Made by a program: the position numbers and the translations under genes
Virus record (IMG/VR): IMGVR_UViG_3300025679_000112
Coordinates: 1-21,715 of that record
DNA from: a virus
Direction: 5' to 3' (one strand)
Length of the DNA stretch: 21,715 bases
Notes under the pieces: model-generated
Databases searched by the model: none
What the model saw: only the letters and a program-made list of their open reading frames with translations
What the model was told of the DNA's origin: nothing
Part shown: positions 4,007 through 18,829 of the stretch, piece after piece
Numbering within the stretch: position 1 is the first letter of the stretch
Layout of the letters: every line of letters starts with the position of its first letter

Positions 4007-6568
4007 TTACTTCTTTACCGTGTTGGCTAGCCTGATCAGCGTGTTCGCCGCCTGGACTTGGCGCTGGATATTGCCGCCTGTAGCGGCGGGCGGCAAATGC
4101 ATCAGGTTGCCCACCGTGTGTGCGACATCGTCGATTGCCGCCGGGGGAATCTCCGGCTTGGGGGCTTCTGCCGGCGCTCCGGCCTGCGCTACCATTGCTT
4201 GCCGTTGCGCTTCTTCCATTGCCCGCTGCGTCTCGAGCGCGGTCGCCGCCGTGAGATAGGCGAGCACGTTCTGCCATCCAGCCGGATTCTTCGTTGCCAG
4301 ATCGGAGTTCTCCTGCGCATATTGCCGGACCACCCGCTTCAGCACAGAGAAGTCGTCGATCTCCTTGTCCGGCAGAATCGATGGCTTCCATTGCCCCGTG
4401 GGCTTGCTAGTGGCGGAATCCAGCATCGGAATTGGCTGAGACTTTATCAATTGGTCGAGAACCTGCAGCACTTTGGAACGCATCGCCGCTCCCGGAATCA
4501 CGATTCCTGGCACTCCGAGCGCCGTTGCCGCCTGCTCCTGATTGCTGGATTCCTCAAAGATCGCCTGCGCCAGCGGATTCTGTGCCGCCGCCTCCATCAG
4601 ATCCATCCAGCGTTGCCGCAGCTCGGCCGCCGTCATGGGGAATCCCTGATCGATATCCGGATAGGCGTGGGCATTGCCTTGCAAATCGTCGAGTCGCACA
4701 TAGTTGTTGCGAAACTCCGATCCATTTTCCACGATGACTTGGCGCTGATCCTCCGTCATATTTCGCTGCGCGCAGCGCACTGCGATGCCGTCTGCGGCGG
4801 CATGCTCGTCCCGTAGGTTTTCCCAATAGATATTCAGCTTGCCTAGAGCCACGTTCAATTGCTGTTGCTGGCCGCCGAAGGTCTGCACATTCTCATCGCC
4901 GGGTCCGCCATGGATTTGCGGCGGCACGCCCGCGAAGATCTGCGCATTCATTGCCAGCTTGTCCAGATAGGCGAAAGCCTCTTCGTGCATCTGAAACTGA
5001 AATTGGAAGAGCGCGTCGGCCAGCCGCTGCGATCCCGGCGCCCCGGTCCGCTTCAGCTTGACCAGGTTCAACACGCCCGGCAGCATCGGCTTGCCCTGCA
5101 TCGCCTTGTTGTCGATCAGATCTGCATTGGCCAGCGTCACTCCTGAAGAGCAGCGGTCCATGAACTCGTGCAGGATGTTGGCCATGTCGTTGTAGCGTTT
5201 CTGGAACGGTACAACGATGTCGCCGATTGCCGGCGGATATGGCCCAAACCCCTCATGTGTGCCGGCCCATGTCCATTCATCCACCAGCTTGGCTTCTTGC
5301 GCCGCCAGAAACGTGTCGCCTACATTCACCAGCAAGACGCCGTTGGGGTAGTACTCGCGCATTCGCTTTCCGAACTCCTGATCGTCTTCCAGATCGAAGG
5401 CCCAAGGCTGGATCCAGCTGCGCGAAAGCGTGGGGCGCTGATCCTCCAGAACGCTTGCATAGGCGCCGGTCTGCGAATACACCTGCTGCCGCGCGATGCG
5501 GTCTATGCTTCCATTCGCTGAGAGCGTGCTCGTCGCCGATGCGACAATCTGCTCGTACATGCCGGGATACGCTGCTCGCAGGGCGCCAACATGCACTTCG
5601 AGCTCGAGATTCAGAATCGGTGTCTGGTAAAGGCTTTGCGCTGCCGGATCGCAGTCCACTTCCAGTGGAGAGTACACATTTTGCGCCACCATGCCATTGG
5701 GAACTTCTTCCTCTCCCAGCTTCTGTGTAGCCGTGCCATACTCCGCCGGAAAGAAAGACTCGCCGCCAAAAGGGGACTGGCAGCTTGAGCAGAGCCGAGG
5801 TGCGCTCCAGTTCGCCGCTTCTTCGGTATCGAGCGGGTCCGTCGCGCCGGCGGCCGCCAACGCCGGCGTATCTTGCCCACAGGAAAAACAGTGATAGCGG
5901 GCCGGAAGAATCTCCGTCTCCGACTCTTGCAAGACCGGCTCATGCCGGCTGCCCGCGCGGTCCGCATCCACAATGTAGCGGGTATGGCGAAAGGCGGCGC
6001 CCGTCGTATAGAGATACAGCAACTGCTGCTTCAACAATGCCTGCTCGCGGTTCTGGCGCTCGATGATGCCGATCAGTGTTTGCGCGGCCTTCGCCGTCGT
6101 CACATCCGTCAATTGCTCGGCATTCTCAGGCAGCCAGCGCGACTTGGGGACCTGCGGTGACAGCGATGCAATAAATCCGGTCGCCAGCATCTGATAGAAG
6201 TTGCTGCAGTACTGATACAGGTCCTTGTCGTCGGAGTCTTTCGGATGCGGGCCGTTGTCGTTCATCCATCCGACAGCGTCGAAAAACTCAGCCCTTCCCG
6301 GACCAAACGCGATGAATTGGTTCCCTTTAAAAAACTCCAGGTTCAGCAGGCAGCGCTCGATCAGCACCATCCGGTCTTGCGACCACTGGTCTTTGTATCG
6401 GCGCACCAGCGCGATCAGCCGCTGCTGGTCCTCGAGAGTAAGTCCGGGGCTATTCTCCGGGTCCTCTGCTCTGCCCTCCATGGGGTCTGAGGGTGTGTGC
6501 TCGCGCGAGGGCAAAGAAGCCGGGGGAATCACTTCAGGGATCAAATCAATTCCAGGATTGGTCGCCAT
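4007..6568 (-). CDS. Portal protein with a zinc-ribbon-like insertion
   Basis: This 853-residue protein is the probable portal, the dodecameric ring at the head vertex through which DNA passes. It begins after a disordered Pro-rich N-terminus (1-45). Residues 46-130 look like a typical large podovirus-type portal start (RYKDQWSQDRMVLIERCLLNLEFFKGNQ). Around 440-560 there is a conserved-looking stretch (PPAIGDIVVPFQKRYNDMAN, then QIFAGVPPQIHGG). The C-terminus is long, helical and Gln/Ala-rich (about 640-853). Two CxxC pairs, C227/C230 and C260/C263, lie 29 residues apart and would suit a zinc ribbon, an unusual insertion for a portal. The protein is longer than most siphovirus portals. The ATG at 6568 has only a weak AAAGG about 14 bases upstream. 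Scaffold-like and capsid genes follow. The call is from size, motifs and order. Confidence 0.78.
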   Translation of the reverse strand: MATNPGIDLIPEVIPPASLPSREHTPSDPMEGRAEDPENSPGLTLEDQQRLIALVRRYKDQWSQDRMVLIERCLLNLEFFKGNQFIAFGPGRAEFFDAVGWMNDNGPHPKDSDDKDLYQYCSNFYQMLATGFIASLSPQVPKSRWLPENAEQLTDVTTAKAAQTLIGIIERQNREQALLKQQLLYLYTTGAAFRHTRYIVDADRAGSRHEPVLQESETEILPARYHCFSCGQDTPALAAAGATDPLDTEEAANWSAPRLCSSCQSPFGGESFFPAEYGTATQKLGEEEVPNGMVAQNVYSPLEVDCDPAAQSLYQTPILNLELEVHVGALRAAYPGMYEQIVASATSTLSANGSIDRIARQQVYSQTGAYASVLEDQRPTLSRSWIQPWAFDLEDDQEFGKRMREYYPNGVLLVNVGDTFLAAQEAKLVDEWTWAGTHEGFGPYPPAIGDIVVPFQKRYNDMANILHEFMDRCSSGVTLANADLIDNKAMQGKPMLPGVLNLVKLKRTGAPGSQRLADALFQFQFQMHEEAFAYLDKLAMNAQIFAGVPPQIHGGPGDENVQTFGGQQQQLNVALGKLNIYWENLRDEHAAADGIAVRCAQRNMTEDQRQVIVENGSEFRNNYVRLDDLQGNAHAYPDIDQGFPMTAAELRQRWMDLMEAAAQNPLAQAIFEESSNQEQAATALGVPGIVIPGAAMRSKVLQVLDQLIKSQPIPMLDSATSKPTGQWKPSILPDKEIDDFSVLKRVVRQYAQENSDLATKNPAGWQNVLAYLTAATALETQRAMEEAQRQAMVAQAGAPAEAPKPEIPPAAIDDVAHTVGNLMHLPPAATGGNIQRQVQAANTLIRLANTVKK

Positions 6569-7132: not shown

Positions 7133-7756
7133 TCATTTCAGCTCTACGCACCAGTACCTCCAGAGGTATTCGGTCGAGGCAGCCAACTTTTGAGAGTTCG
7201 CCATCACCGTGAAGGCGGCCGCGCTGGTGGCCGAAGGAGCGCTCGCCGCGGCGGGCGGTATCGGCACGTAAGGAGCCTGGTTGTTGTTGAGCGCCGCAGC
7301 TGCTCCGTTCGCCGCGGCGATGCCGCAATTCCATGTGTCGCCACTGGCGATGGGACTCCCAGGGCTGATGGTGGCGATAACCGCATTCTTGTCGGGAGAG
7401 GAACCTGTCGTAACGTCCAGCCACCCGGCGGAATCGCTCGAATGCGTTTCTAGGCTGACCTCGGGCGATTTGCCCGCTCCGGTTCCTCCCTTTACTGTGG
7501 GCGTGGAGCCGCCAACGGTCAAATGCTCACCGTCCGTCAGCATCCCCGGCTGCGGTAGCACGGCGCAGCCGAATTCTTGCTTCTCGTTGTCGAAGGTAAG
7601 TGCATCCTCCGGCCCGGAACAGGAGGGCAGTGTCGTCCATGCTCCCGTCCCGTCTCCGCTTCTCGATTGATTCAGCGAAAGCGACGTTTGCGCGATCCCT
7701 GCGAGCGGAAGCAATATCACAACCGCAATGGAGGGGAGAAGAGTGGTCGCTTTCAT
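7133..7756 (-). CDS. Exported protein of unknown function
   Basis: It encodes 207 residues with a textbook Sec signal peptide: MKATT, then a hydrophobic core to about residue 20, and likely cleavage after GIAQ or nearby. The mature part is Ser/Thr/Gly/Ala-rich and beta-like, with three cysteines in the mature region before position 145 and one near the C-terminus (WRYWCVELK). Motifs such as LTVGGSTPTVKGGTGAGKSP recall repeats in phage fibre or decoration proteins, but no family is recognised. AGGA lies close before the ATG at 7756. The next gene begins about 20 bases after its stop. An exported protein directly before a head module is odd and matches the exported neighbours at 7948-9347. Confidence 0.68.
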   Translation of the reverse strand: MKATTLLPSIAVVILLPLAGIAQTSLSLNQSRSGDGTGAWTTLPSCSGPEDALTFDNEKQEFGCAVLPQPGMLTDGEHLTVGGSTPTVKGGTGAGKSPEVSLETHSSDSAGWLDVTTGSSPDKNAVIATISPGSPIASGDTWNCGIAAANGAAAALNNNQAPYVPIPPAAASAPSATSAAAFTVMANSQKLAASTEYLWRYWCVELK

Positions 7757-7898
7757 TCGTCCTAACTTATCTCGAAAGGGTGTGCTTGTGGTCTTAGCGA
7801 TCGCGGCGGCCTCTGCGTTATTTCGGCAAAGGTGGGAGATTGTTTACGGTTTTACCGGCAATGTCGCCTGGACCTCTCACTTGTAAGGAATCCGCAAA

Positions 7899-7927
7899 AT
7901 AGTACCGTCAGCTAGTCCCCAGCCCAA
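7899..7927 (-). promoter_or_regulatory. Weak sigma-70-type promoter candidate
   Basis: On the minus strand, TTGGGC (complement of 7922-7927) and TACTAT (complement of 7899-7904) are separated by 17 bases. This lies in the 191-bp gap before the exported protein and head module, the longest intergenic space in that part of the operon. The -35 match is only partial, so this may be chance. Confidence 0.2.
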
Positions 7928-7947
7928 GGCACAAACTGCGGCCACCA

Positions 7948-8814
7948 TCAATCCGCGCAGATGTAATTCAAGACGTCGCTGCCTGTACCGGTCAGCGTCA
8001 GCGTCGTTGTCGTGACGGTCACCTTGATCGGGGCCGCTGTCGTAGTGTCCGTCGCCACACAGGTCGGTGCGGTGACGTAGGATTTCACAAACGTGTAACT
8101 ACCGGCGCCAGATGACAGCATGATGTGCCCGCGCAGGTCGGTGTTTCCGTTATAGCCGTCTCCGATCGCCTCTGCTTGGAGCCAACCGTCAGTAAGTCCA
8201 TAGGCGCTCCCGAACTGGACTATGCCGCCGGAAGGCGAGCTGATCGAGATCTTCGTCGAGACGCCATAGGTGCCAATCGCGAACGCGCCGTTGTTCGGAA
8301 TCTCAAAGTGGATGTCCCCTCCATAGGTGTAGAGCGAGAACTGATTCACGCTGGACGCATCTGTGATCGTAAAAAGGCTGCTAACCGATCCGGAGGATGT
8401 TTTGTATGCAATCGTGTCGCTGCCGGAGCCTCCATCTGTGAGTACAAAGGAATCGGCGAATGTTTGGGCCGCGGTAAAGGTATTCGGCGTATTCGTCACG
8501 GCGGCATTCGTCACTTGCGTCGCCGTGTAATCCCCGCTCTGCGCCGTCACCGCGCCGGTTCGACCGAAGACCGAACTCACCGCTCCGCTGGCTTCCCTGC
8601 CAGGGACGCCGCCGGGGCCTACCGACTGCGCAAGGACGTTCTCCCATGGAGAGAGAAGCACCGCCACGGCAAGACAGAGGATCGCAGAAATAGTGAAAGT
8701 TCGCAGACGAATACGGCTAAGCCCTTCCGGCGAGCTTTGCCGCAGCACGGCTTCGCGGTGTGTAGAGACCTCTAGCGTGCCAAACAAGTCCAGGGCGAGT
8801 TTCTTGTTCGCCAT
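7948..8814 (-). CDS. Membrane-anchored or exported fibre-like protein
   Basis: It encodes 288 residues from the ATG at 8814, whose first base is the last of the preceding TGA (TGATG), so reinitiation is likely. A GTG one codon earlier is also possible. A long basic N-region (about 35 residues) precedes a hydrophobic helix (about 36-56) and a possible cleavage at LAQ/S. Residues 81-104 contain SVFGRTGAVTAQSGDYTATQ, a motif I know from phage tail-fibre and structural proteins. The remainder is Gly/Ser/Thr-rich and beta-like, ending with two cysteines and a Thr-rich segment. The sequence SVGPGGVPG after the hydrophobic helix is shared with the upstream gene. A receptor-binding or decoration role is plausible; the export signal is unexplained. 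Confidence 0.66.
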   Translation of the reverse strand: MANKKLALDLFGTLEVSTHREAVLRQSSPEGLSRIRLRTFTISAILCLAVAVLLSPWENVLAQSVGPGGVPGREASGAVSSVFGRTGAVTAQSGDYTATQVTNAAVTNTPNTFTAAQTFADSFVLTDGGSGSDTIAYKTSSGSVSSLFTITDASSVNQFSLYTYGGDIHFEIPNNGAFAIGTYGVSTKISISSPSGGIVQFGSAYGLTDGWLQAEAIGDGYNGNTDLRGHIMLSSGAGSYTFVKSYVTAPTCVATDTTTAAPIKVTVTTTTLTLTGTGSDVLNYICAD

Positions 8815-9347
8815 CACAGCTGGGTCACCGTATACCAGTACGTATAAATTGGATTGGTCGCCGGGGAACCCCCAACGATAAAGCCTATCCCGATTGCCTT
8901 ATTCGCGTCCGTTAGTGCAGTTATGCAAGTGTTCTGCCCATAACCTGCCCCCGATGCTCCTAAGGCTACGGCTGCTTCGGCTGCGCCGCCAAGCACTGGC
9001 TGGTGGCCGATGCCGGCATTGTAAAACGAGGCGTATCCTTCTAATGTGGCCCCAGTCGAGCCAGCGCTGGTCACGAGATAGCCCCCGCAAATCCTGTAGA
9101 TTCCGGCGGTCGCGGGAGTATAGACAGCGACAGCCGGGATGGTCACGTTTGCGTTAGGTACAACTGCACTCGCCACCGTTACCGCTCCGGCTCCCTTGCC
9201 CGGCACGCCACCGGAGCCTACCGACTGCGCATAAATGCTCTCCTGGGGAATATAGGGGAAGGCAAGCATCGCCAAGACGACAGAGATGATCGCGGCGGCA
9301 GCGAGCCTCTGTATGCGGATGTCACCAAGTGCCCTCAGTACTTTCAT
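8814..9347 (-). CDS. Exported beta-rich protein sharing a leader with its neighbour
   Basis: It encodes 177 residues. The N-terminus has about 14 polar residues, a hydrophobic helix (about 15-33) and a signal-peptidase-like end at YAQ/S. SVGSGGVPGKGAG follows, matching SVGPGGVPGREAS in the next gene; at DNA level 16 bases are identical (9216-9231 and 8617-8632). The mature domain (about 55-177) is small, Ala/Gly/Thr-rich and beta-like with two cysteines (RICGG, NTCIT). No family is recognised. The ATG at 9347 abuts GAGG and lies 2 bases after the stop of the upstream gene, so it is probably coupled. It may be a capsid-decoration or fibre-type domain behind an export leader. Confidence 0.66.
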   Translation of the reverse strand: MKVLRALGDIRIQRLAAAAIISVVLAMLAFPYIPQESIYAQSVGSGGVPGKGAGAVTVASAVVPNANVTIPAVAVYTPATAGIYRICGGYLVTSAGSTGATLEGYASFYNAGIGHQPVLGGAAEAAVALGASGAGYGQNTCITALTDANKAIGIGFIVGGSPATNPIYTYWYTVTQL

Positions 9348-9349
9348 CC

Positions 9350-9712
9350 TCAGTCAAACTCCGTGACGCGAACCATCGTTGCGTCCCCTGCCGATCGGAG
9401 ATTGATAAGTGGCGTAGCCGCCAACTCGTAGCCGCCGGAATTGTCTGGACCGCGGCCGATAACCGGGGCATATCCGGCCCCCTGCGGAACCGGCTGTCCC
9501 AGAATGATTGGTTCCGTCTGCGGAGCAATCGAATACATGGTCGTGAACGGCGTGGCCGAGCCATCGTCGAACTGATACTGCAGTCCCTGTCCGACCCCTC
9601 CGTTCGCCGCTGCATCTTCGATAATCTCCACGCGCCGCGTTACCTGTGTCGCGTAAATTGAGGTAAAAGTACCGGCGACTGCATTGAGGCCAATCAGACG
9701 TGTGTGTGCCAT
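9350..9712 (-). CDS. Small beta-rich virion-type protein
   Basis: It encodes 120 residues from the ATG at 9712, beginning MAHTRLIGLNAVAGTF. A longer frame extends to 9817, but that extension overlaps the upstream gene and is Arg-rich shadow sequence. GAAGGG lies about 12 bases before the chosen ATG. The protein has no signal peptide, unlike its downstream neighbours. It looks like beta strands with Gly/Pro turns (PIILGQPVPQGAGYAPVIGR). The style would suit a capsid-decoration or tail-completion protein, but there is no recognised domain. It sits between a small basic phage-type protein and two exported proteins. Confidence 0.65.
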   Translation of the reverse strand: MAHTRLIGLNAVAGTFTSIYATQVTRRVEIIEDAAANGGVGQGLQYQFDDGSATPFTTMYSIAPQTEPIILGQPVPQGAGYAPVIGRGPDNSGGYELAATPLINLRSAGDATMVRVTEFD

Positions 9713-9713
9713 G

Positions 9714-9914
9714 CTATTTCTTTCCCTTCTCGGTCTTCTTGCGAAGCCCCAGGAGCATCTCGGCCAGCCGTGCCCGGCGGCCCGTCTTGCTCTGATCGTC
9801 GGCGTGCTCTCCCGCATACTCCGCCGTCGTTTTCCCCGCGCGCTTGGCTGCGGCGCTCAAGCTACCCGGCTTTTCAATCGCGTTTTGAATCCAATGGTTC
9901 TTTTTCTCGGCCAT
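9714..9914 (-). CDS. Small basic conserved-type phage protein
   Basis: It encodes 66 residues from the ATG at 9914 (MAEKKNHWIQNAIEKPGSLS). AGAGGA lies 7 bases upstream of this ATG; an ATG two codons earlier sits too close to that site. The pattern WIQxAIxxPGSL, then AAKRAGKTTAEYAxEH, then a Lys/Arg-rich tail resembles small proteins found in many phage genomes, whose role is unknown to me. It is strongly basic, so it may bind DNA or a virion partner. Its stop is 1 base before the next start codon. Confidence 0.72.
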   Translation of the reverse strand: MAEKKNHWIQNAIEKPGSLSAAAKRAGKTTAEYAGEHADDQSKTGRRARLAEMLLGLRKKTEKGKK

Positions 9915-9930
9915 ATCCATTCCTCTTCCC

Positions 9931-10260
9931 TCAAATAGCGCTTTCCTGCTGCAGCACTTCGTCCAGCCCCACCAGGGTTTTCCAGTCTTGTTCGAGGATT
10001 GTCGCCTCTTTGACAAACGCCGCATCGTCGCCCGCTTCCCGGAGCGTCGCAATGTCGCGCTGGACTGCGGCGATCTCCGGGCCTTCAAACCGGGAGAGTG
10101 GATCGGCCGTGTATGCGGAGATTTGGGTAATCGCCGCACTCGCGTCCGATTCGGCTTGCTCCAGCGCGCCCCGCGGCAAGTCCGTCTGGGCCGGGGTACC
10201 CACGGCGGTCCCGCAGAACGTGAGCAACAATAGGCTCCCCGGCAGCAACATCCTGATCAT
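9931..10260 (-). CDS. Signal-bearing helical protein, spanin candidate
   Basis: It encodes 109 residues from the ATG at 10260, with GGGGG about 7 bases upstream; an ATG two codons earlier is too close to the site. A hydrophobic segment (about 4-20, MLLPGSLLLLTFCG) is followed by a mostly helical, acidic region with KEATILEQDWKTLVGLDEVL. LTFC resembles a lipobox but has Phe before Cys, so lipoprotein processing is doubtful. Position among lysis-type genes plus a single N-terminal membrane or export segment and a periplasmic helix would suit an inner-membrane spanin. No family match can be shown, so this is a candidate only. Confidence 0.55.
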   Translation of the reverse strand: MIRMLLPGSLLLLTFCGTAVGTPAQTDLPRGALEQAESDASAAITQISAYTADPLSRFEGPEIAAVQRDIATLREAGDDAAFVKEATILEQDWKTLVGLDEVLQQESAI

Positions 10261-10312
10261 GTGCATTCCCCCTTTGCAGAGAGTGCAAGAGAAAACGAAA
10301 CGCCGGCCCGTG

Positions 10313-10353
10313 CCGTTCGCCCGGTGGTAGCACGAACGGTGAGCTGTAGCTCA
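10313..10353. other. Paired small hairpins in a 113-bp spacer
   Basis: ccgttcg (10313-10319) pairs with cgaacgg (10333-10339). Immediately after, tgagctgtagctca (10340-10353) is a near-perfect palindrome. No T-run follows on either strand. They occupy the gap between the 103-residue gene and the spanin candidate and could stabilise or separate transcripts. Confidence 0.4.
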
Positions 10354-10373
10354 GGCCTCATGGGTGGACCCGG

Positions 10374-10685
10374 CTACTTCCCCTCGGCGGCGGTAAGCAC
10401 GCCTTGAGCCACTACGACGAATGACTTCGCGTCCGTCACGATCTTCAAGAACGCCGTATAGGCAGCCGAATCGGCCGCAAAATTCAGTCCGGAGGCCCCG
10501 GCTGCTGGTGCAGCCAAGCTGATGAATGACTCCACGTCGCTGAACAGAGTCACCGCTGCGGCAGCTGCAGCGGGCGCGACGGCTTTCTCTGCGGTAAAGA
10601 TTGCGGCCGCCTTCTCTTCTAATCCGAGCAGGAATGAACCGGCCTTCAGCAGAGCGTTTTCAATCGAAGTGAATGGGTTAGACAT
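10374..10685 (-). CDS. Small Ala-rich helical protein in the lysis region
   Basis: It encodes 103 residues. An AGGAG site lies 6 bases before the ATG at 10685, among the best in the window. The sequence is Ala/Val/Phe-rich with amphipathic to hydrophobic helices (about 10-35, KAGSFLLGLEEKAAAIF; 35-60, VAPAAAAAAVTLFSDVESFI; 75-100). No charged signal n-region or clear transmembrane run exists, though the 35-50 segment could insert in a membrane. I recognise no family. Placement right after the two-helix holin candidate suggests a lysis accessory or membrane-associated protein; this is inference. Confidence 0.65.
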   Translation of the reverse strand: MSNPFTSIENALLKAGSFLLGLEEKAAAIFTAEKAVAPAAAAAAVTLFSDVESFISLAAPAAGASGLNFAADSAAYTAFLKIVTDAKSFVVVAQGVLTAAEGK

Positions 10686-10695
10686 AGTTTCTCCT

Positions 10696-10917
10696 CTACC
10701 TCTGGGTTGAATCCTTTGTGGAGTTGGGCAGCGGGCTCTGTTTCAGATATGCCAGCGCCGGCATTGCGGCGCCAGCGGCGACGACCTTGGCAAGTGCAAT
10801 CAGGCCCGCATGGGTGAAGTTGAAGTCTTGCGGTTCGGCAAATGTTGCCGCGGCTGCCGATGCCGCGCCACCAATCACCGCCGCGCCGAAGCCGTGGAGC
10901 CATGCTTTCCAGTTCAT
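10696..10917 (-). CDS. Holin candidate with two membrane helices
   Basis: It encodes 73 residues from the ATG at 10917 (MNWKAWLHGFGAAVIGGAAS). Two hydrophobic helices are visible: about 9-26, Gly/Ala-rich, and about 35-58 (HAGLIALAKVVAAGAAMPAL). The tail is short and polar (KDSTQR). This is the form of small two-helix phage holins, which form membrane lesions that release the lysozyme. The candidate lies one small ORF after the lysozyme gene. A GTG start at 10932 would add 5 residues. The ATG is preferred because it overlaps the stop of the upstream 60-codon frame as ATGA. Assignment is by topology and location. Confidence 0.6.
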   Translation of the reverse strand: MNWKAWLHGFGAAVIGGAASAAAATFAEPQDFNFTHAGLIALAKVVAAGAAMPALAYLKQSPLPNSTKDSTQR

Positions 10918-11096
10918 TGCGGCGAACCCCACGCCCGTTTTGCCCTTGCGATAGGCGTCTCGTCGCTAGCAAACTTACTCATCTGCATTGGGGTGCCCTG
11001 ATCTTGCTGGAAAAGGCTGAAAACATCCGAGAATGGCATGCGGTGTTTGACGCGGTCTTTTGGCGCCACTGTAGACGAAGCAATGCAAGTTGCCAT
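10914..11096 (-). CDS. Possible 60-residue protein between lysozyme and holin candidate
   Basis: The space from 10918 to 11236 is 319 bp, and this is the only plausible minus-strand frame in it. It starts at the ATG at 11096, preceded by GGGG about 9 bases away, and ends with a TGA that overlaps the holin-candidate ATG as ATGA. The product is basic and polar (APKDRVKHRMPFSDVFSLFQ, ending KRAWGSPQ), with no membrane segment. Shorter starts exist inside. The overlap is the main support. The rest of the gap (11097-11236) holds no supported gene. Confidence 0.35.
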   Translation of the reverse strand: MATCIASSTVAPKDRVKHRMPFSDVFSLFQQDQGTPMQMSKFASDETPIARAKRAWGSPQ

Positions 11097-11236
11097 AGGT
11101 ATCTACCCCGGCATTCAAAGGATGTGACAAAAGCAGCTACGTTATTTTCCGCGGAGGAAAAGCCATGAGAGACCACGAGACATTCGCTGGGTATTGCCCA
11201 CGAGCCGCGTCATGCGAATGAGCTAGAATTTAAAAG

Positions 11237-11740
11237 CTACGCAGCCGCCCGCCGCATCCATCCCGCCAGATACATGCGCAGCGACGGATTCTTTCTCACG
11301 AGCTCTTCATAGTGCGCGGTGGCCCGCCCCCGCATGTCCTCAAGGACCGCCTGAGGGTTGGCTCGGTCCAGCCGGTCCAGCGTGATCGGTCCAATGCGGC
11401 CGTCACCACTCACCTGGAGCGTCTCCTGGAGCATCCTGGCCGCCGTAACCACTCCGCAATTCACTCCCAGGGAAAGTAATCTATTGGCTATCTCTTGGCT
11501 CACGATCTGCTCAATGCACAAAGGTTGGCAATAATCACGGTCATAGACCCCAATCGCCACTTCCAGGGCAGCCGTGCATCCCATTGAGCTGTAGAATAGG
11601 CAGTTCGTGAGCTCGGGATGAAAATGCTCGTCGATCCCGAGCCGGGTTCGCTTCCCATCCGGAGATCTGGTGATTGCTCCGGTGAGCGTCGCATCCTCAA
11701 ACCGAAGCACATAGTCGATCGCGCGCCTAAGATCTGCCAT
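11237..11740 (-). CDS. Endolysin: GH108-type lysozyme with peptidoglycan-binding domain
   Basis: It encodes 167 residues and probably hydrolyses peptidoglycan to release phage. The N-terminal part (1-75) fits the GH108 lysozyme layout: a helix ending FE with a candidate catalytic Glu at residue 15, then LGID at 34-37 where the family has TxxGI. The motif is degenerate: the usual EGGY reads EDAT and the DPGG loop reads SPDG. The C-terminal domain (about 90-163) closely fits the associated peptidoglycan-binding domain, with GVVTAARMLQETLQVSGDGR, IGPITL and a final NPSLRMYLAGWMRRA. There is no signal peptide, so release would need a holin, and a candidate lies downstream. GGGA precedes the ATG at 11740. 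The changed catalytic loop leaves activity uncertain. Confidence 0.82.
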   Translation of the reverse strand: MADLRRAIDYVLRFEDATLTGAITRSPDGKRTRLGIDEHFHPELTNCLFYSSMGCTAALEVAIGVYDRDYCQPLCIEQIVSQEIANRLLSLGVNCGVVTAARMLQETLQVSGDGRIGPITLDRLDRANPQAVLEDMRGRATAHYEELVRKNPSLRMYLAGWMRRAAA

Positions 11741-11755
11741 TCGTTCCCGCTTCCC

Positions 11756-11883
11756 CTATGAGTTTGTTGAAAAACGCGCCGACCCCCCAGCGAGGCGCAA
11801 GATAATGTGTCACTGCTCCAGATGCCGTCACCACATCCTGGATGCTCGGCGGGAGCTGAGCGTGCTTTTCAACAAACTCCTAG
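11756..11883. mobile_element. MITE-like element with 14-bp perfect terminal inverted repeats
   Basis: gagtttgttgaaaa at 11760-11773 is the exact inverse of ttttcaacaaactc at 11866-11879. The 120-bp unit is flanked by ctat (11756-11759) and ctag (11880-11883), a near-match that could be a 4-bp target duplication of the C/T-TA-A/G type used by some IS5-family elements. No transposase frame is present. It occupies the gap between the lysozyme gene and the coiled-coil gene, and the latter's TAG stop lies in the right-hand flank. The alternative is a long-loop hairpin in the transcript. No second copy was seen in the window. Confidence 0.55.
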
Positions 11884-12272
11884 CGGACCCCGAAGATGTG
11901 CCCGATCGCCGCGATCAGGGTGCCGCCTACGCCGCCGCCACAAAAAGCCAAAATGCCATGTGCTAGCCGATGGCGCGCATGCATTTCGATCTTTTCCGTC
12001 TCCAACGCTTCGAGGCGGTCTGCGTGCCGGCCCACTGCGGCTTCCACAATCGGCAAACGCCCGTGAGGGCCGTCGATCCCAAGCTCCTTGCGCAGCAGTT
12101 TTAAGTCTGTATTGCATTCCCGCCCCTGCGCCAGACTCTCATCTACTTTGCCCTTCAACTCCGATAATTCGGCGAGAATCCTTGTTTCTATCCCGGCCCC
12201 CAACTCTACGTCCAGCGGGATGCGAGCCTCCTCCCGCCGTTTCTGCACCCTTTGTAGTTGAGCGCGCGCCAT
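11880..12272 (-). CDS. Coiled-coil protein with C-terminal membrane helix (XhlA-like topology)
   Basis: It encodes 130 residues from the ATG at 12272, which shares a base with the stop of the giant spike gene (TGATG) and has GGAG 7 bases upstream. A longer frame to 12290 or 12305 is less likely. Residues 1-85 are charged and helical with heptad character (ETRILAELSELKGKVDESLA), then DRLEALETEKIEMHARHR. Residues about 107-127 form a Gly/Ala/Ile-rich hydrophobic helix ending in FGVR. A soluble helical region followed by one C-terminal membrane span matches XhlA-type phage cell-lysis proteins, and the next gene is the lysozyme. It could instead be a tail accessory protein. Confidence 0.65.
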   Translation of the reverse strand: MARAQLQRVQKRREEARIPLDVELGAGIETRILAELSELKGKVDESLAQGRECNTDLKLLRKELGIDGPHGRLPIVEAAVGRHADRLEALETEKIEMHARHRLAHGILAFCGGGVGGTLIAAIGHIFGVR

Positions 12273-15200
12273 CACATCACTCCAGCCCATGCTCCCGACT
12301 TGCACACGTAGAGAGTGTCGGGGCTGTTCGATGTATTGGTGTACAGGCTTCCGCTATTGCAGCTTCCGCTCGGCGCAGAAGCCCCCGACGACCAGCAAGC
12401 TGTCCCAATGCACGCCTCCGGAATGCTCGTCGTGCCCGGTGGCGAACCGCCGGTTGCGGCGCCCCCGAAGTCAAACCCGCCGACCGGCTGCGTCGTTCCG
12501 GTTAAGATCAGTCCCTGATCCGGGCCGCCCACCGTACGCCAAATGTTCGTTGTGACTGCACCGGGCTCGTATGGGCAAGTCACCTGCACATAATTGCTGG
12601 GGTTGCTTAGAGTGGCGGAGCCGTTCGTGATCGTCGCCACGGTACCGCCGATGGTGTTTCCCTGCGAGTCCACGCCGGTGCATTCGTAGCTGTAAGTTGT
12701 CGATCCCGTCCCTGGCTGAACGAAGAGGCTAGGCGCGCCATATGTAGCAGGCGTCGTGATGTTCACCGGACCGGCAAAGTTGAGAAAGCTGTACGGCTGG
12801 AGCACCGTGTTTGGCTCGTCCGATTTGAGAACGCGGTCGGAATGCGCAATCGGCTGGTGGATATCACCGCCCACATCCAGCGTCGTCAGATGGTTCGTCG
12901 CAGAAAGATTCGCCTGCTGGATTGACCCGTCATTCAAGACATCCGTTTCATTTCCGCCACTGTTTATGACAAGCTTGTTGATGCTGCTGTGTGTCGAAGG
13001 CGTTCCGTTGTTGATGCCCAACACTCCCACGCCCGCGCCGTAGTTCCCTGCAACCACCAGCCCCGGAACGTCACTGGAGTTCCCGAGCGCCACCGTGAGC
13101 GAAGTAACAACCGCGCCGGAGGCATGTGACGCCGCAGTAGTGTGATACATGCCACGGCTCAATCCGGTGAGCGTGTCGCCGCTGATCCCGGTGTAGCACT
13201 CCGCTTCCGAATCAATGTAGAAGCACCCCGCAGGAGAGTAGGCAGCAGGAGAACTTGCCAGCGTCGCAGTCGTATCACTCGCGCCCTGAGGACCACCAAG
13301 AACGGTGCCCCATCCTGTTTGTGGGCAAGTCCAGCTAGAATTCGCGATGCCAAGCACGGGCGAGGAATTACAGCCGGGTGTCGGCAGACTAAGTTGCTGC
13401 CACACTGGAGCGAAGTCCACGTAGCCGATCTCAACCGTGTCGGCGGAAGTCGCGTCATTGACCTGGATGGTGAGATACGCTCCCGCCGCCGCGCCAGTAA
13501 AATCAACCGGGAAGCTATAGGTTGTCCAAGCATTGGTGACGGGAACCGCATTTGTGTTAGTTCCGGTGCCTGCGCCAAACGCCTCGACCTGTACCGTGTT
13601 TGAGGAGAGAGATCCTTTTACTTCGACGGTCTCAATGTACTTTCCTGCGGCAAGTCTTTGTCCGGAGCCAATGGTGATTCGGGCTGGAGGAGTGAAGTAC
13701 GGAGACTGACATCCGCTGGCCGTTCCCACCGCGCAGCTTGTGTATCCCTGCGAGATCGGAGCAGTCGCGTCAAATGTCCATGCGCTGAATGGATTAGACG
13801 CCCAGCTAGAATCTGTGTTGAACTCATCCGGGCAGATCAGGCCGCTCGTTGAATTCACATACGGGGCTGTGAGATTTCCCGTGTTGAATGTTTCGTTGGT
13901 CTGGCCGAGCGTGGGCTGCTTCCCACAGCCGTAGCCAATCTGCTGCTGCGGTGAGCCTTCCGAGCCGCGAGGCCCATAGGCAACATTGCCCGGACCCCAG
14001 AAGATGGGGCTTCCCTGTCCGTATACATTAGTCAATGCGCTTCCGTTCCACATAGCGGCAACATCATCGAAGATGTTGTCTGCTCCGTACACAATGACAG
14101 GCTTCGCTACGTCGTAAAAGTCCGTTCCCAGGCCGCCGCCGACGATGTGCTGACGGATTCCACTTAGCACAATCTCCCCGTTCGGCTCGATGTGTGGGCT
14201 TGTCCAAGTGCAGTTGGTGCAATCCCATTCCCCCATCGGGCCAGTCGTTCCAGCGGTCCCTGTACCGGGATAAACGGTCCCTCCCGGCTCATGGTAGATG
14301 TTGATGAAGTTTGCGGCGCTCTCTCCCAGGCTGGCTAGCGCTCCCGTTTGATCGTCGTAAGTGGAAAAAAGGTTGAACCCCGAGCCGCCATCGGTGTAAA
14401 GGTCGAAGTCGCGGTATGAGGTGTCTCCGCCGTAGACGGTAGCCCACGCCATGCCGGACCCGAAGCTGTGAATCGAAATCCCGCTGTAGGAATTACCATC
14501 GCCGGAGATGCCACCCGCGATCCACGGGTGGTTGTTTACGGACGGCATTCCCTCGACGAAGCCAGAGTTAGTGAAAGTGATGTTGATGTTCTGAAATCGC
14601 GTAGCGTAGGGCGGCTGAACAAGGTAGATACCAGCATCAGGATCAGTCGATGTTGCGCCCCATGGAAGAATCGAGATGTCATGCACCCGCGCCTGATAGA
14701 ACGCCTGACTGCCGGAGTCCGCTCCATTTGCCAGCGGAGTGCAGATGCCGCAGTTTCCCACGTTGAACGCTGGGTAATAGCTCGCATTCGCCGGAGTAGT
14801 CGCGCCGGAATTGATGGTCGGCGTCACCGGCCAGGGATAGGTCGGCTGGAACGGGTTCAGCGGAACGATTACCGAGTTCACGGCGTGGTCAGCCGCAGTA
14901 GTTCCGTTCTGTGCGCGCGCCGTCAGCGTGATTGTGTACGGCGAGACCTTGCTATAGCCGATGTATGCGAACTCTTCGTCGCCAATCTCAACCAAACCGT
15001 AAGGCGCGACGTTCGATTCTCCTACCGGCGTGGGGTCAATCGAGTTCGCGAGGGTGATGGTAAACGGCATCGTCTGACCGGATGTAATCTCAGTCTGGAT
15101 ATTCTGTGCCGAGCTGCCTGCGAAGAACTCCTCTTGCGCGGCAGTCGTGCCGGGGAAGTTTGCCGCAAGCGTGACGGCGCTCCCAGAAACGCTGCTGACG

Positions 15201-16834
15201 GTGGTCACAAAGAGGCCAGTAGAAGCAAGCGGGAACAGTACCGTCTCTCCGGCGGTCGGAATCGCGGCAGACGCGACTGTTAGCGTGGCTGATCCATTCG
15301 TGGCCGAACCAACACCAACGATGCTGCCGCTGCCGTTCGGACCCGAACCGGCCAGCCAACCCGGACCAAGCGGGTTGTTCGAGTAAACGCTATTCGCCGC
15401 CAGAGGCCGGTAATTGGGCGTCTGGCTCGTTGTCGTGCCAGAGGCGTCTACGATGTTCCACGGCTTGGTGGGGTCAATGCTCTGATCGACGCCGATGGTG
15501 AACGAACCCCAATCGCCATTCGTTCCATTGCCGCCATCAATCACGTCCAGCCCCGGAAGCCCGACCAGCTCCGACATTCCGTGATCGTAGAGTGATCCAC
15601 GCGCGAATCCGCGCAGCCATGAAACTTCAGGCAGCGGGCCAGTCAGGCATGCGCCATTCGGGATGGTCAGCGTGACGTTTGCAGTGCTCTGGTATGTAAT
15701 CGCCGCTTCAATTGCAGCCGTGTCCAGATGCCCTAGCGTGAAGACTACATTCGACACGGTAAAAGGCGCTGGGGTTGATAGAGTCGCGGTCGCTCCGCTG
15801 ACTGCGGTAATCGTCGGCATGAAAGAGGTTTGGACGCCCGAAACGAACCCTGCAATGGCAACCGTCTTGCCAATGTCCGCGGATGTAAAGCTGCCGCTGG
15901 AACGGGTCAGAATGGCCGAGCCGCTCGTTGCACTGCCAGTATCGAGGGTCGCGTCGCATTGCGCTCCCCATTCCTTGACGGAGCGCTCGGTAGCCGACAC
16001 ATCGGTCCGGTTGTCGACAACCTTCACCCCGGAGGGGTTAGAAAAAGGCGTGTGACCTGCGCCGGGTTGGATCGTCACCGCTCCCTGCTGAGTCGCTGCC
16101 GCATTGATGGCGTTCTGGGCAGTGTATGTCGGGCTGGTCGCGTAAAAGTGATACAAGTCCTCGAATGCATCTTGAGAGTTGTTGGCGAATAGATCGTTTA
16201 CTTGCGTATCGCCACCCGTCGAGCTGGGCGGCGCAACTTCGACGTATTGAGATCCGTTCCACTTGTACCAGATCGTCGGCACCTTGGTTACATCCACCAG
16301 ACCTAGCGTCTGCGATCCGTGTACGCTGGCGATGATCGCCGTTGAGCCGCCCAACCTGTACCAGTCATTGTTCAGAATGATCGTATTCGGTTGCGGGTTC
16401 GCCAAGTTAGCGTCAATGGCTTCCTGTAGCCCCGCTGTCGCCGAGGTGAGATAGAAGGGAACCTGATGATGATTCAGCGGATGGATCGTTACCGAGCACG
16501 TGCTGTTTGTGGATGACACCGCCGTCGGTGTCACCGTTTCCGACAGGCTGGGGTTTCCATCGACGATTCTGATCGGCACCCCCGCCGTGAAGGCGGAAAA
16601 GAACGATGCTCCGCCCTGAACCCTGCAAGCCGTGGGAGCAAAGCTCGAATAGGTATCCCCGGCATAGCCTGGAACCTTCCACGTCCCATACTGTGAGGCG
16701 ATGATCTGGCCCTCTATATTCTGAGCGACCGCCCCTCGGCCTGACATCAGGAGGGCGGTCAGCACAAGGCTGGCCGCAGCCAGCAGAGGCCTTGCCGATC
16801 CCCCGCCCCAACGAATAAAAATGTCTCGGTTCAT
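12272..16834 (-). CDS. Giant exported spike-like protein with beta-helix features
   Basis: It encodes 1520 residues from the ATG at 16834 (MNRDIFIRWGGG); ATG at 16849 adds five residues and is also possible. A Sec signal has its hydrophobic core about 14-30 and cleavage near AVA/QN. Residues about 285-299 (VKEWGAQCDATLDTG) and 370-379 (DTAAIEAAIT) resemble the two halves of the pectate-lyase-type tailspike motif (GAxGDGxxDDTxAI), split by an about 70-residue beta module. A second similar module (NGSATLTVASAAIP) occurs further on. Beta-rich Gly/Asn/Thr sequence fills the rest. Near the end are a fibronectin-like SYECTGVDSQGNTIGG stretch and a cysteine-bearing tail (SLYTNTSNSPDTLYVCKSG). It may bind or cleave surface polysaccharide. 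No catalytic residues were identified. Confidence 0.75.
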   Translation of the reverse strand: MNRDIFIRWGGGSARPLLAAASLVLTALLMSGRGAVAQNIEGQIIASQYGTWKVPGYAGDTYSSFAPTACRVQGGASFFSAFTAGVPIRIVDGNPSLSETVTPTAVSSTNSTCSVTIHPLNHHQVPFYLTSATAGLQEAIDANLANPQPNTIILNNDWYRLGGSTAIIASVHGSQTLGLVDVTKVPTIWYKWNGSQYVEVAPPSSTGGDTQVNDLFANNSQDAFEDLYHFYATSPTYTAQNAINAAATQQGAVTIQPGAGHTPFSNPSGVKVVDNRTDVSATERSVKEWGAQCDATLDTGSATSGSAILTRSSGSFTSADIGKTVAIAGFVSGVQTSFMPTITAVSGATATLSTPAPFTVSNVVFTLGHLDTAAIEAAITYQSTANVTLTIPNGACLTGPLPEVSWLRGFARGSLYDHGMSELVGLPGLDVIDGGNGTNGDWGSFTIGVDQSIDPTKPWNIVDASGTTTSQTPNYRPLAANSVYSNNPLGPGWLAGSGPNGSGSIVGVGSATNGSATLTVASAAIPTAGETVLFPLASTGLFVTTVSSVSGSAVTLAANFPGTTAAQEEFFAGSSAQNIQTEITSGQTMPFTITLANSIDPTPVGESNVAPYGLVEIGDEEFAYIGYSKVSPYTITLTARAQNGTTAADHAVNSVIVPLNPFQPTYPWPVTPTINSGATTPANASYYPAFNVGNCGICTPLANGADSGSQAFYQARVHDISILPWGATSTDPDAGIYLVQPPYATRFQNINITFTNSGFVEGMPSVNNHPWIAGGISGDGNSYSGISIHSFGSGMAWATVYGGDTSYRDFDLYTDGGSGFNLFSTYDDQTGALASLGESAANFINIYHEPGGTVYPGTGTAGTTGPMGEWDCTNCTWTSPHIEPNGEIVLSGIRQHIVGGGLGTDFYDVAKPVIVYGADNIFDDVAAMWNGSALTNVYGQGSPIFWGPGNVAYGPRGSEGSPQQQIGYGCGKQPTLGQTNETFNTGNLTAPYVNSTSGLICPDEFNTDSSWASNPFSAWTFDATAPISQGYTSCAVGTASGCQSPYFTPPARITIGSGQRLAAGKYIETVEVKGSLSSNTVQVEAFGAGTGTNTNAVPVTNAWTTYSFPVDFTGAAAGAYLTIQVNDATSADTVEIGYVDFAPVWQQLSLPTPGCNSSPVLGIANSSWTCPQTGWGTVLGGPQGASDTTATLASSPAAYSPAGCFYIDSEAECYTGISGDTLTGLSRGMYHTTAASHASGAVVTSLTVALGNSSDVPGLVVAGNYGAGVGVLGINNGTPSTHSSINKLVINSGGNETDVLNDGSIQQANLSATNHLTTLDVGGDIHQPIAHSDRVLKSDEPNTVLQPYSFLNFAGPVNITTPATYGAPSLFVQPGTGSTTYSYECTGVDSQGNTIGGTVATITNGSATLSNPSNYVQVTCPYEPGAVTTNIWRTVGGPDQGLILTGTTQPVGGFDFGGAATGGSPPGTTSIPEACIGTACWSSGASAPSGSCNSGSLYTNTSNSPDTLYVCKSGAWAGVM

Positions 16835-16845
16835 TTTCTTTTCTA

Positions 16846-16962
16846 TCATGCGAATGACAATAAACGATCCTTGGTTTTTCTCACCACTACGCCGGTCGCC
16901 CGGCTCAAGCGCTTCCAGCACTCCGGCAGTCGCGGGGCGGCGGAACGCTGCAGCAGCCGCAT
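16846..16962 (-). CDS. Possible 38-residue basic peptide before the spike gene
   Basis: In the 214-bp gap before the spike gene there is a frame from the ATG at 16962 (MRLLQRSAAPRLPECWKRLS) whose TGA overlaps the ATG at 16849 as ATGA. It is Arg-rich and has no clear ribosome-binding site. The overlap could be chance. If real, it would favour 16849 as the spike start. The remainder of the gap shows no gene. Confidence 0.2.
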   Translation of the reverse strand: MRLLQRSAAPRLPECWKRLSRATGVVVRKTKDRLLSFA

Positions 16963-17048
16963 CGGCTGATCTGCTGACTCGAAGATTGTCGCCTGGCTTC
17001 TCTCTGCCACGGATGGCGCAAATGTCAGCCAGGGTATGTCGCTATATC

Positions 17049-18584
17049 TCAGTTGTGATGAAGATGACAGTAGATGGTCGGGGTGGAACTGGTGGCAGAA
17101 TTGGCTTCGATCTCGGTCCAATAGTATGAAAAGCCGGTTGTCGTGAGCGTCCCCGTCAGACTGAAAGCCGCGGTATAGCTATTGCCGGTATTCACCGTGC
17201 AGAATGGATAATAGGTCGTATCCGGCATTGCCGCGAGGCTTGGCGTGGTGTTTCCGCCCGAGGTGAAGGTCACCGTTCCCGAGCAGTTGTCGAGATTGGA
17301 GCCGTTGGTGATCGTGCACCCCGTGAAGGTAAAGTAATCATCGGTCCCCGTGTTACTTCCATCCGCCGCCGCTGTCACCTGACCCTTTGCGTTTACCGTG
17401 ACCTTCGCATTGGTGTAAACACCGGCAACTACTCCCGAGGGTGCTAAGTCGATATTGGTGCTAGCTCCCATCGCGTCCGCCAGCGTGAATGTCGATGCGA
17501 AGTTTTCCGCCGGCTCCTGTGGCTCAGCCACGCCTCCGGACTGCAGCGTCTGATATTTCAATAGGAGGCCGCTGATCGCGCTGGCCGGAATCGTCGCACT
17601 GTCCACATAGGCGTTTCCGTTCCCAACCAGAAGGTGATTGAGCGGGGCCGCACCGTCATACAGGTAACCGCCACTCGCGTTGATCTCCCCATTCTCCACA
17701 TCCACCGGCCATGACGGAGTGGATGTTCCCACGCCTAGGGCTGCCACCCCCGTCAAGTTGTAGCCGCTCATGTTGAGCGAACCGGCAATCGACTGCGGTC
17801 CATGGTTCAACGGCTGCGCCAGAATCGGCTGCGGATAGATCACCGTTCCATTCCACAGCGGCGCTCCCTGCGAGATGTTTACGGTTCCGTTGGTTCCGCC
17901 GTTGAATTGCCAGGCCTGAGGCCAGCCGGGATAGGCATTTCCATTCGCCGAAGTCAGAGAAACGTTATAGCCGGAGTAAGGAATGATCGTATCGTTGAAT
18001 GCGATCGAGCACACCGACGTATTGCCGGCCGGAGGAGCTGTCCCGCCTGTGAGTCCCGCTGCCTGACGGAATGGTTGCCCACTGCCAATTGTCTCTCCTT
18101 GCAGCTCTTCCCCGCCGGGAGTGTTCCCGATGTAGACCTTGATGCCCACTGCGTTCGGCGGAAAATCAGAGGGAGCGGAAATCGTCAGCGTGCCCGGACC
18201 GGTCAGTTGGATTTGCTGCTCGGGGGAGGGAAGCGTCTCTTGGCTTCCATCGTAGTAAGTTATCTCAACATAGTAAGTGCCACCCGGCAATGTTCCCGAG
18301 CCATACCCAATCACCGGGGCGGAGATCTCCAGGGGATCCGGCAACCCGGTCACCGAGCCGTCGACGGTCGTGTAGCAGTTGACGGTCAAGGGAACCACGG
18401 CGCCGCTCCCGGCGATGAGCCCTGCTTGGGCGAGATCGAAACTTAGGGTGGCGTTTGTAACCGGCAGGCCACTTGGACCTTGCAGGCGCCCTGTCACCGT
18501 GCCTGCATAGGCAATCCACGCGGTTCCAGTCACCGCCAGCACCAATGCACGCGTCAAACTCCGCAAAACGGAAGACATGTTCAT
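17049..18584 (-). CDS. Exported tail-fibre-like protein
   Basis: It encodes 511 residues. A signal peptide spans about 1-27 (hydrophobic core 11-26, AYA/G cleavage). Residues 28-70 contain GTVTGRLQGPSGLPVTNATL. A fibronectin-type or similar beta module lies at about 98-155 (GGTYYVEITYYDGSQETLPS). Fibre-type motifs follow: SLNMSGYNLTGVAALGVGTS (269-288), GGYLYDGAAPLNHLLVGNGN (305-324) and VYTNAKVTVNAKGQVTAAAD (389-408). These last resemble phage side-fibre repeats. The C-terminus has three cysteines and ends HLHHN. The ATG at 18584 overlaps the preceding TGA (ATGA). Its neighbour is the giant spike, so the pair probably forms an adhesin module; the signal peptide is unexpected for a virion fibre. 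Confidence 0.75.
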   Translation of the reverse strand: MNMSSVLRSLTRALVLAVTGTAWIAYAGTVTGRLQGPSGLPVTNATLSFDLAQAGLIAGSGAVVPLTVNCYTTVDGSVTGLPDPLEISAPVIGYGSGTLPGGTYYVEITYYDGSQETLPSPEQQIQLTGPGTLTISAPSDFPPNAVGIKVYIGNTPGGEELQGETIGSGQPFRQAAGLTGGTAPPAGNTSVCSIAFNDTIIPYSGYNVSLTSANGNAYPGWPQAWQFNGGTNGTVNISQGAPLWNGTVIYPQPILAQPLNHGPQSIAGSLNMSGYNLTGVAALGVGTSTPSWPVDVENGEINASGGYLYDGAAPLNHLLVGNGNAYVDSATIPASAISGLLLKYQTLQSGGVAEPQEPAENFASTFTLADAMGASTNIDLAPSGVVAGVYTNAKVTVNAKGQVTAAADGSNTGTDDYFTFTGCTITNGSNLDNCSGTVTFTSGGNTTPSLAAMPDTTYYPFCTVNTGNSYTAAFSLTGTLTTTGFSYYWTEIEANSATSSTPTIYCHLHHN

Positions 18585-18829
18585 CGACGAGGTCTCAGGG
18601 GAGCGCTCTGCCTATCCCGCTGGTCAGGAATCGGGCGATCATCGGCGTCCGCATGGCACTTGCCATCCAACAGTGGATTGCGTGCGTCGTATGCGTGGTA
18701 ATGCGTGAAGGCCGGGCAAACCCCAAAACCATCGTCGCGCAACCTTGGCGAGGGTGCCGGTTTTACCTCCGGATGAGGCCGGCTCTGCGCTGGTCCTGCC
18801 AAAAGAGCAATGGCTAGCAAAAACGTCAC
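18581..18829 (-). CDS. Small exported protein before the fibre gene
   Basis: It encodes 82 residues from a GTG at 18829. GGGAGG lies 5 bases upstream; an ATG at 18833 opens another frame and sits too close to the site. A short signal peptide (core 2-13, likely cleavage AQS/R) is followed by a Pro/Arg/Asp-rich mature part with two cysteines at about 38 and 58 that could pair. The stop overlaps the fibre start as ATGA, suggesting coupling. No family is recognised. A role with the exported fibre, for example as a partner or chaperone, is only a guess from linkage. Confidence 0.55.
   Translation of the reverse strand: MTFLLAIALLAGPAQSRPHPEVKPAPSPRLRDDGFGVCPAFTHYHAYDARNPLLDGKCHADADDRPIPDQRDRQSAPLRPRR

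Follow-up and report, generated by a model that had tools for sequence, protein, structure and literature searches.

Predicted Sec export and disulfide folding of spike-like proteins in a podovirus-like acidobacterial phage

The window analysed here is a 21.7-kb viral record (IMG/VR record IMGVR_UViG_3300025679_000112, all 21,715 nucleotides) that carries its lysis and structural genes on the minus strand. Within this block, several spike-like or fibre-like proteins begin with what look like signal peptides (leaders). The assembly of tailed phages is taught as taking place in the cytoplasm, and to our knowledge the spikes and fibres of other tailed phages are thought to be built in the cytoplasm. 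The question raised by this locus is whether such proteins are exported and, if so, whether they end up in the virion. Sec export and disulfide folding of the spike proteins are very probable. The best explanation overall, held with moderate confidence, is that Sec-exported, disulfide-folded spikes or fibres join the virions at lysis. The evidence consists of the leaders, their conservation, a cysteine pairing signature, and the operon and domain context.

An earlier note on this DNA had named seven hydrophobic, export-type protein starts, at positions 7756, 8814, 9347, 10260, 16834, 18584 and 18829. All seven open reading frames (ORFs), their start positions and their hydrophobic N-termini are confirmed on the minus strand, and the proteins are named below by these positions. 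The features of this export block are as follows (lengths in amino acids, aa).

7133–7756, minus strand: 207-aa leader-bearing protein (PLAGIA/QTSLSL; 4 mature cysteines)
7948–8814, minus strand: 288-aa leader-bearing fibre-like protein (ENVLA/QSVGPGGVPG; VFGRTGAVTAQSGDYT; 2 mature cysteines; phrog_16348)
8579–8632, minus strand: linker DNA common to the 8814 and 9347 genes (AQSVG(S/P)GGVPG; 83% identity self-match to 9181–9231)
8814–9347, minus strand: 177-aa leader-bearing protein (likely cleavage ESIYA/QSVGSGGVPG; 2 mature cysteines)
9931–10266, minus strand: small protein resembling a lipoprotein (relatives have a lipobox, the window copy has LTFC)
12272–16834, minus strand: 1520-aa leader-bearing spike-like protein (22 mature cysteines; split GAQCD...DTAAI motif)
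16724–16834, minus strand: leader of the 16834 protein, 37 residues (...GRGAVA/QNIEGQ)
16124–16723, minus strand: N-terminal module (N-module) of the 16834 protein (QNIEGQIIASQYG...; ~165 ordered residues, two conserved cysteines)
17049–18584, minus strand: 511-aa leader-bearing fibre-like protein (MNMSSVLRSLTRALVLAVTGTAWIAYA/GTVTG; 6 mature cysteines; contains VTVNAKGQVTAA)
18504–18584, minus strand: leader of the 18584 protein, 27 residues (score 9.7)
18581–18829, minus strand: 82-aa ORF with a GTG start (hydrophobic N-terminus without basic residues)

Leaders were scored with a home-made signal-peptide scorer, run in place of SignalP, on which eight E. coli leaders score 9.0–11.7. The window proteins score 10.5 (7756), 8.7 (8814), 10.2 (9347), 8.2 (10260/10266), 10.1 (16834), 9.7 (18584) and 9.8 (18829). 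All seven starts are therefore present as described, six in or near the range of the known E. coli leaders and 18829 weak. A score of at least 8 is reached by 9 of the 127 window ORFs of 60 aa or longer, and the genes called as portal, scaffold, major capsid, endolysin and sigma factor all score below 8. By the same scorer, six of the seven window leaders and those of all close N-module relatives combine a basic n-region, a hydrophobic core and small residues at −3 and −1. For 8814, 9347 and 18584, shuffled N-termini match the real score in a few percent of cases, so that comparison with relatives outweighs the score for these three proteins. The fibre motifs that had been claimed are also all present: VFGRTGAVTAQSGDYT in 8814, VTVNAKGQVTAA in 18584 and a split GAQCD...LDTAAI in 16834.

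In relatives, the same mature starts are paired with very different leaders (MKKALLVVLALVPCFPHVQA/QNIEGQIIAAQYG, MRRITLLLLIVCARLHA/QNIEGQIVASQFG and MNRDIFIRW...GRGAVA/QNIEGQIIASQYG). The 18584 family keeps the mature start GT(V/I)TG.LQGPSGLP behind leaders that differ greatly; a relative reads MLKIKALLLLIIATTTAYG/GTVTGTLQGPSGLP where the window reads MNMSSVLRSLTRALVLAVTGTAWIAYA/GTVTGRLQGPSGLP. What is conserved is the presence of a leader, while its sequence varies. Dozens of soil phage contigs encode the N-module of the 16834 protein. IMG/VR searches with it give 60 loci, and a second search with leader-less relatives gives 57, on contigs that are partly the same. A leader stands directly before the module in 87 of 100 non-redundant copies, and the remaining 13, which are distant, are leader-less.

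Copies with and without a leader also occupy the same gene slot, between terminase and portal. The leader is absent in loci L088, L090, L091, L101 and L112 and present in L089, L097 and L083; a further leader-bearing locus, L095, has the same gene order from the module gene onward. The L089 and L112 portals share 45% identity. The predicted mature start of the L095 protein, QNRTSFAGLKNAFDFAYG, corresponds to MANRTRFAGEFNALNYAYG, with which the leader-less L088 protein begins (FAQNRTSFAG in L095; MANRT(R/K)FAG at the start of the leader-less proteins). Because the two coincide, the leader resembles a targeting tag that can be removed from proteins that are otherwise homologous.

Two module cysteines are near-invariant in the first set (79 of 80 and 80 of 83 rows), and in the leader-less copies the first conserved cysteine column is occupied in 0 of 13 and the second in 3 of 13. 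Among full-length leader-bearing module proteins, the mature cysteine number is even in 76 of 78, never zero, and ranges from 2 to 28. The leader-less module homologues comprise five with even, five with odd and one with zero cysteines. In the window, the five large putative exported proteins have 4, 2, 2, 22 and 6 mature cysteines. Related proteins are not independent, so the figures for all loci are given after collapse by homology at 40% identity: 42 even, 4 odd and 7 zero among putative exported families and 40 even, 47 odd and 40 zero among cytosolic families (even versus odd, Fisher p 9.8e-8). One of the four odd exported families is an apparently bacterial gene at the edge of L030. The parity test does not need any leader predictor to be right in detail; leaders were removed with a home-made cleavage rule. 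Even cysteine numbers are a known preference of exported, disulfide-bonded bacterial proteins (PMC7678975). Cysteine parity is independent evidence that the predicted leaders work.

These comparisons bear on a reading in which the hydrophobic N-termini are uncleaved cytoplasmic tags, for tail-tip insertion or inner-membrane anchoring. The 8814 protein could fit it, as a 43-residue n-region precedes its hydrophobic segment and this long N-terminus could be a signal anchor; some phage ejection proteins also carry hydrophobic segments. Uncleaved tags are nevertheless very improbable, given that the small-residue sites with a following Q are conserved, that the leader is unconstrained beyond signal-peptide features, that the leader-less homologue starts at the mature N-terminus, and that cysteine parity points to cleavage and an oxidising compartment. 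Export itself, which the earlier note had raised, is strongly supported by leader conservation over deep divergence, by even-cysteine parity and by the slot contrast.

The host was guessed to be acidobacterial, and this holds. An N-module match at 96% is present in an Acidobacteriaceae metagenome-assembled genome (L030), and a related phage lies within an 87-kb Acidobacteriaceae contig (G001 C94) with bacterial genes flanking it on both sides; the host phylum is therefore Acidobacteriota. The related phage (L150–L154, about 26.9–70 kb of that contig) is a largely complete integrated prophage of the same phage group, with host genes either side. One of its genes (L153:5508-6332) has a sub-threshold match to RelA/SpoT (PF04607, 6.9e-5).

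Capture of host secreted-adhesin genes by the phage, with the leaders as leftovers, deserves hardly any credence. Acidobacterial hosts do export many proteins, and in our judgement the leaders look host-like. In a survey of the phylum that scores a limited number of candidates per genome, however, the N-module is found in 1 of 396 sampled genomes and there inside a prophage, as opposed to the dozens of phage contigs, and the leaders are kept over deep divergence. With no chromosomal module family outside a prophage in this survey, host capture is rejected.

The context of the export block is given by the other called genes of the window.

788–2077: major capsid protein (putative; named by size, order and comparison)
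4007–6568, minus strand: portal protein (putative; size and position; at the downstream end of the export block)
11237–11740, minus strand: endolysin (phrog_315, 3.4e-20; within the export block)
19655–20248, minus strand: phage sigma factor (phrog_1740, 5.5e-28; upstream of the export block)

From right to left, the order is sigma factor, export block, putative portal (6568–4007), scaffold-like protein and putative major capsid protein. The window covers part of the genome of a podovirus-like phage of Acidobacteria. Its portal is encoded in 18 IMG/VR loci at 69–83% identity. The names of portal and capsid rest on size, order and comparison, as neither has a PHROG match or a usable Pfam match; Pfam and PHROGs likewise give nothing useful on most of the leader-bearing window proteins. 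The window portal, 16834 and 8814 proteins have no match in INPHARED by tblastn. By these portal and capsid searches, the window phage belongs to an undescribed phage group. The sigma factor gene stands directly upstream of the export block in both the window and the C94 prophage, and the phage-encoded sigma factor may switch on the late block.

In the C94 prophage, all large leader-bearing phage genes lie between sigma factor and portal; they number seven, including three module paralogues, and a lipoprotein gene accompanies them. From portal to terminase there is no large leader-bearing gene. An 887-aa module protein of this prophage matches the pectate-lyase fold PF12708 above cut-off (1.3e-11). 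Others match tail-spike or virion-structure PHROGs (phrog_1171, tail spike, and phrog_4636); the latter is a tail spike matched by a 455-aa protein of L003 with the mature start QQVGPGGVPG. Leader-bearing genes share strand and block with the putative portal, scaffold and capsid genes. Several proteins per phage have one N-terminal domain in common and differ in the remainder, as in spike sets.

The earlier note had left two branches, unusual virion assembly or export to the host surface or beyond, and neither is decided. Under the second, the exported proteins would not belong to the virion and would act on the surface of the infected or lysogenic cell or in free form as slime-degrading enzymes, receptor masks against superinfection or decoys. 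The same leader and cysteine evidence speaks for it. Each phage has several different leader-bearing proteins, pectate-lyase and chitobiase C-terminal/Ig-like domains are present among them, and the related phage is integrated as a prophage, from which lysogens could express these proteins. Such a role is the main rival, though unlikely: the genes are grouped with lysis and structural genes in the late block and do not stand apart as morons do, leader-less homologues occupy the same slot in other phages, no other obvious fibre gene is found in the C94 prophage, and no anchor for the outer membrane was noticed. The context of the operon, homology to tail spikes and an N-domain shared ahead of a variable remainder favour periplasm-folded virion spikes over masks or decoys, and it is reasonably probable that most of the leader-bearing proteins are virion parts.

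In the favoured mechanism, the spike or fibre proteins would be made late with a cleavable signal peptide and would cross the inner membrane by the host Sec route. The leader would be cut off, usually at A/Q, and the spikes would fold in the oxidising periplasm, where host enzymes would form the disulfides and the spikes would be stored. At lysis, for which genes are present in the same block, mature spikes would meet heads and tails freed from the cytoplasm and attach to the virion through the conserved N-terminal domain, leaving the variable remainder to bind or cut surface polysaccharide. Spikes of P22 can attach in vitro to heads that are already formed, which makes a union after lysis chemically plausible.

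Cultured phages with a comparable arrangement are available. Tunturi 1 and 2 (PP887698, PP885685), from the set isolated by Demina et al. (PMC11924767), are podovirus-like, cultured phages of Tunturiibacter. The main text of that paper is silent on signal peptides, fibres, spikes and mass spectrometry. In both phages, gp12, gp13, gp14, gp16 and gp17 have leaders; gp14 is annotated as tail spike in one record and pectin lyase in the other, and gp17 as virion structural. In Tunturi 1 the mature cysteines of these five number 20, 10, 20, 1 and 32 (gp17 has 34 in Tunturi 2). The predicted mature starts of Tunturi 1 gp12, gp13, gp14 and gp17 are QTAAYP, QTTGAP, TAYTVT and QTCTQT. As in the window, consecutive large, leader-bearing, cysteine-rich genes adjoin the head genes, here annotated as tail spike, tail fiber, pectin lyase and virion structural. 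Unlike the window, the gene order is different and there is no N-module match: the module hidden Markov model (HMM) finds nothing in the three Tunturi genomes searched, so the Tunturi leader-bearing proteins appear to be a separate sequence family. In the siphovirus-like Tunturi 4, leaders are on an annotated tail protein and a virion structural protein, the latter homologous to gp17 of Tunturi 1, and not on the tail fiber. Tunturi 1 gp78 (L160:3745-4947), an annotated tail protein, begins with a lipoprotein-type leader (LLLTGC), after which comes a proline-rich stretch.

Several points weigh against spikes that are exported and then join the virion. We infer export, cleavage, disulfides, virion attachment and lysis timing from sequence, and the leader calls come from the home-made scorer rather than SignalP. 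Few independent leader gains or losses are seen on the tree (3 changes), and no significance is claimed; a tree-based independent-pairs test of leader against cysteines yields at most 3 contrasts and has no power. A 149-aa leader-bearing Tunturi protein has one cysteine, and the Tunturi gene annotations are predictions. Tunturi 3 infects the strain used for Tunturi 1, Tunturiibacter psychrotolerans X5P2, and its fibres are without leaders and contain few cysteines or an odd number, so the host does not require export. No demonstrated case of attachment after export was found for tailed phages.

Individual proteins of the block differ in how clearly they fit. The 1520-aa protein has no Pfam match, and the GAQCD...DTAAI motif is its only spike feature. 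Its N-module is modelled by AlphaFold with a predicted local distance difference test (pLDDT) score of 75.7. The module has no match below E 0.001 in a Foldseek viral library, where TM-scores are low. The best PDB match of its barrel is a Klebsiella capsule lyase (Z 8.7 over 73 residues, root-mean-square deviation 2.6); since common beta-barrels such as ATPase and EF-Tu domains match at Z near 7, this resemblance is only suggestive. The 69-kb contig IMGVR_UViG_3300048815_000026 (L023, L038, L039, L045), from a larger phage, contains at least three module genes and a homologue of the 18584 protein, so the spike set may move between phage lineages.

For 9347, the scorer ranks an earlier cleavage site above the likely SIYA/QSVG. 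The start codon of 8814 and the stop codon of the 9347 gene overlap, and the linker of the two proteins is nearly identical, behind different leaders and before different heads, which suggests shuffling of N-terminal modules. A small lipoprotein encoded close to the lysis genes, which may be a lysis lipoprotein or o-spanin, is a better reading of the 10260 protein than an adhesin. Its relatives have the lipoboxes LVSGC, LTGC and LTSC, the window copy has a poor LTFC, and the gene lies near the endolysin and holin-like genes; the leader is probably of the lipoprotein type. The weakest of the seven is 18829, which scores in the leader range with an n-region that lacks basic residues. In L024/L025 the neighbouring genes leave no space for this ORF. 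It is intact in L030, a close relative, where 11 codons differ synonymously and 9 non-synonymously with a bias to third positions, and it may therefore be a real gene.

Two known kinds of phage adhesin are closest to these spikes. As proposed for them, pIII of the filamentous Ff inoviruses is an adhesin with a cleavable Sec leader and disulfides formed outside the cytoplasm, and is part of the virion. It differs in entering the virion at the inner membrane while a non-lytic phage without a tail is extruded, whereas the phage group described here has portal, scaffold, capsid, terminase and endolysin genes and does not share the inovirus context; no homology to pIII is seen in the family searches. 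The tailspikes of P22-like and Klebsiella podoviruses are large beta-helix or pectate-lyase-like proteins that, like these spikes, have a conserved N-terminal part and a variable remainder and are often several per phage, but as far as is known they are made and assembled in the cytoplasm without the leaders present here. As read here, the exported spikes work like pIII, look like podoviral tailspikes, and belong cleanly to neither. Host Sec is also used by tailed-phage proteins such as Lys44 of phage fOg44 and the signal-anchor-release (SAR) endolysins (PMC6116005), which are lysis enzymes and neither adhesins nor virion spikes. In the open-licence literature searched, no account of Sec-exported, disulfide-bonded spikes or fibres of tailed phages was found.

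The chances are about even that many phages of Acidobacteria build heads and tails in the cytoplasm and disulfide-bonded spikes in the periplasm and join them at burst, with the gain or loss of leader and cysteine pairs in homologous spike genes acting as a switch of folding compartment. If this is true, exported, oxidised spikes would represent a second assembly compartment for tailed phages and would explain disulfide-stabilised adhesins in phages of diderm soil bacteria. A leader combined with an even number of mature cysteines would then provide a test for such phages from sequence alone. Three cultured Acidobacteria phages have this signature and one, which shares its strain with two of them, does not, which makes the question testable at once.

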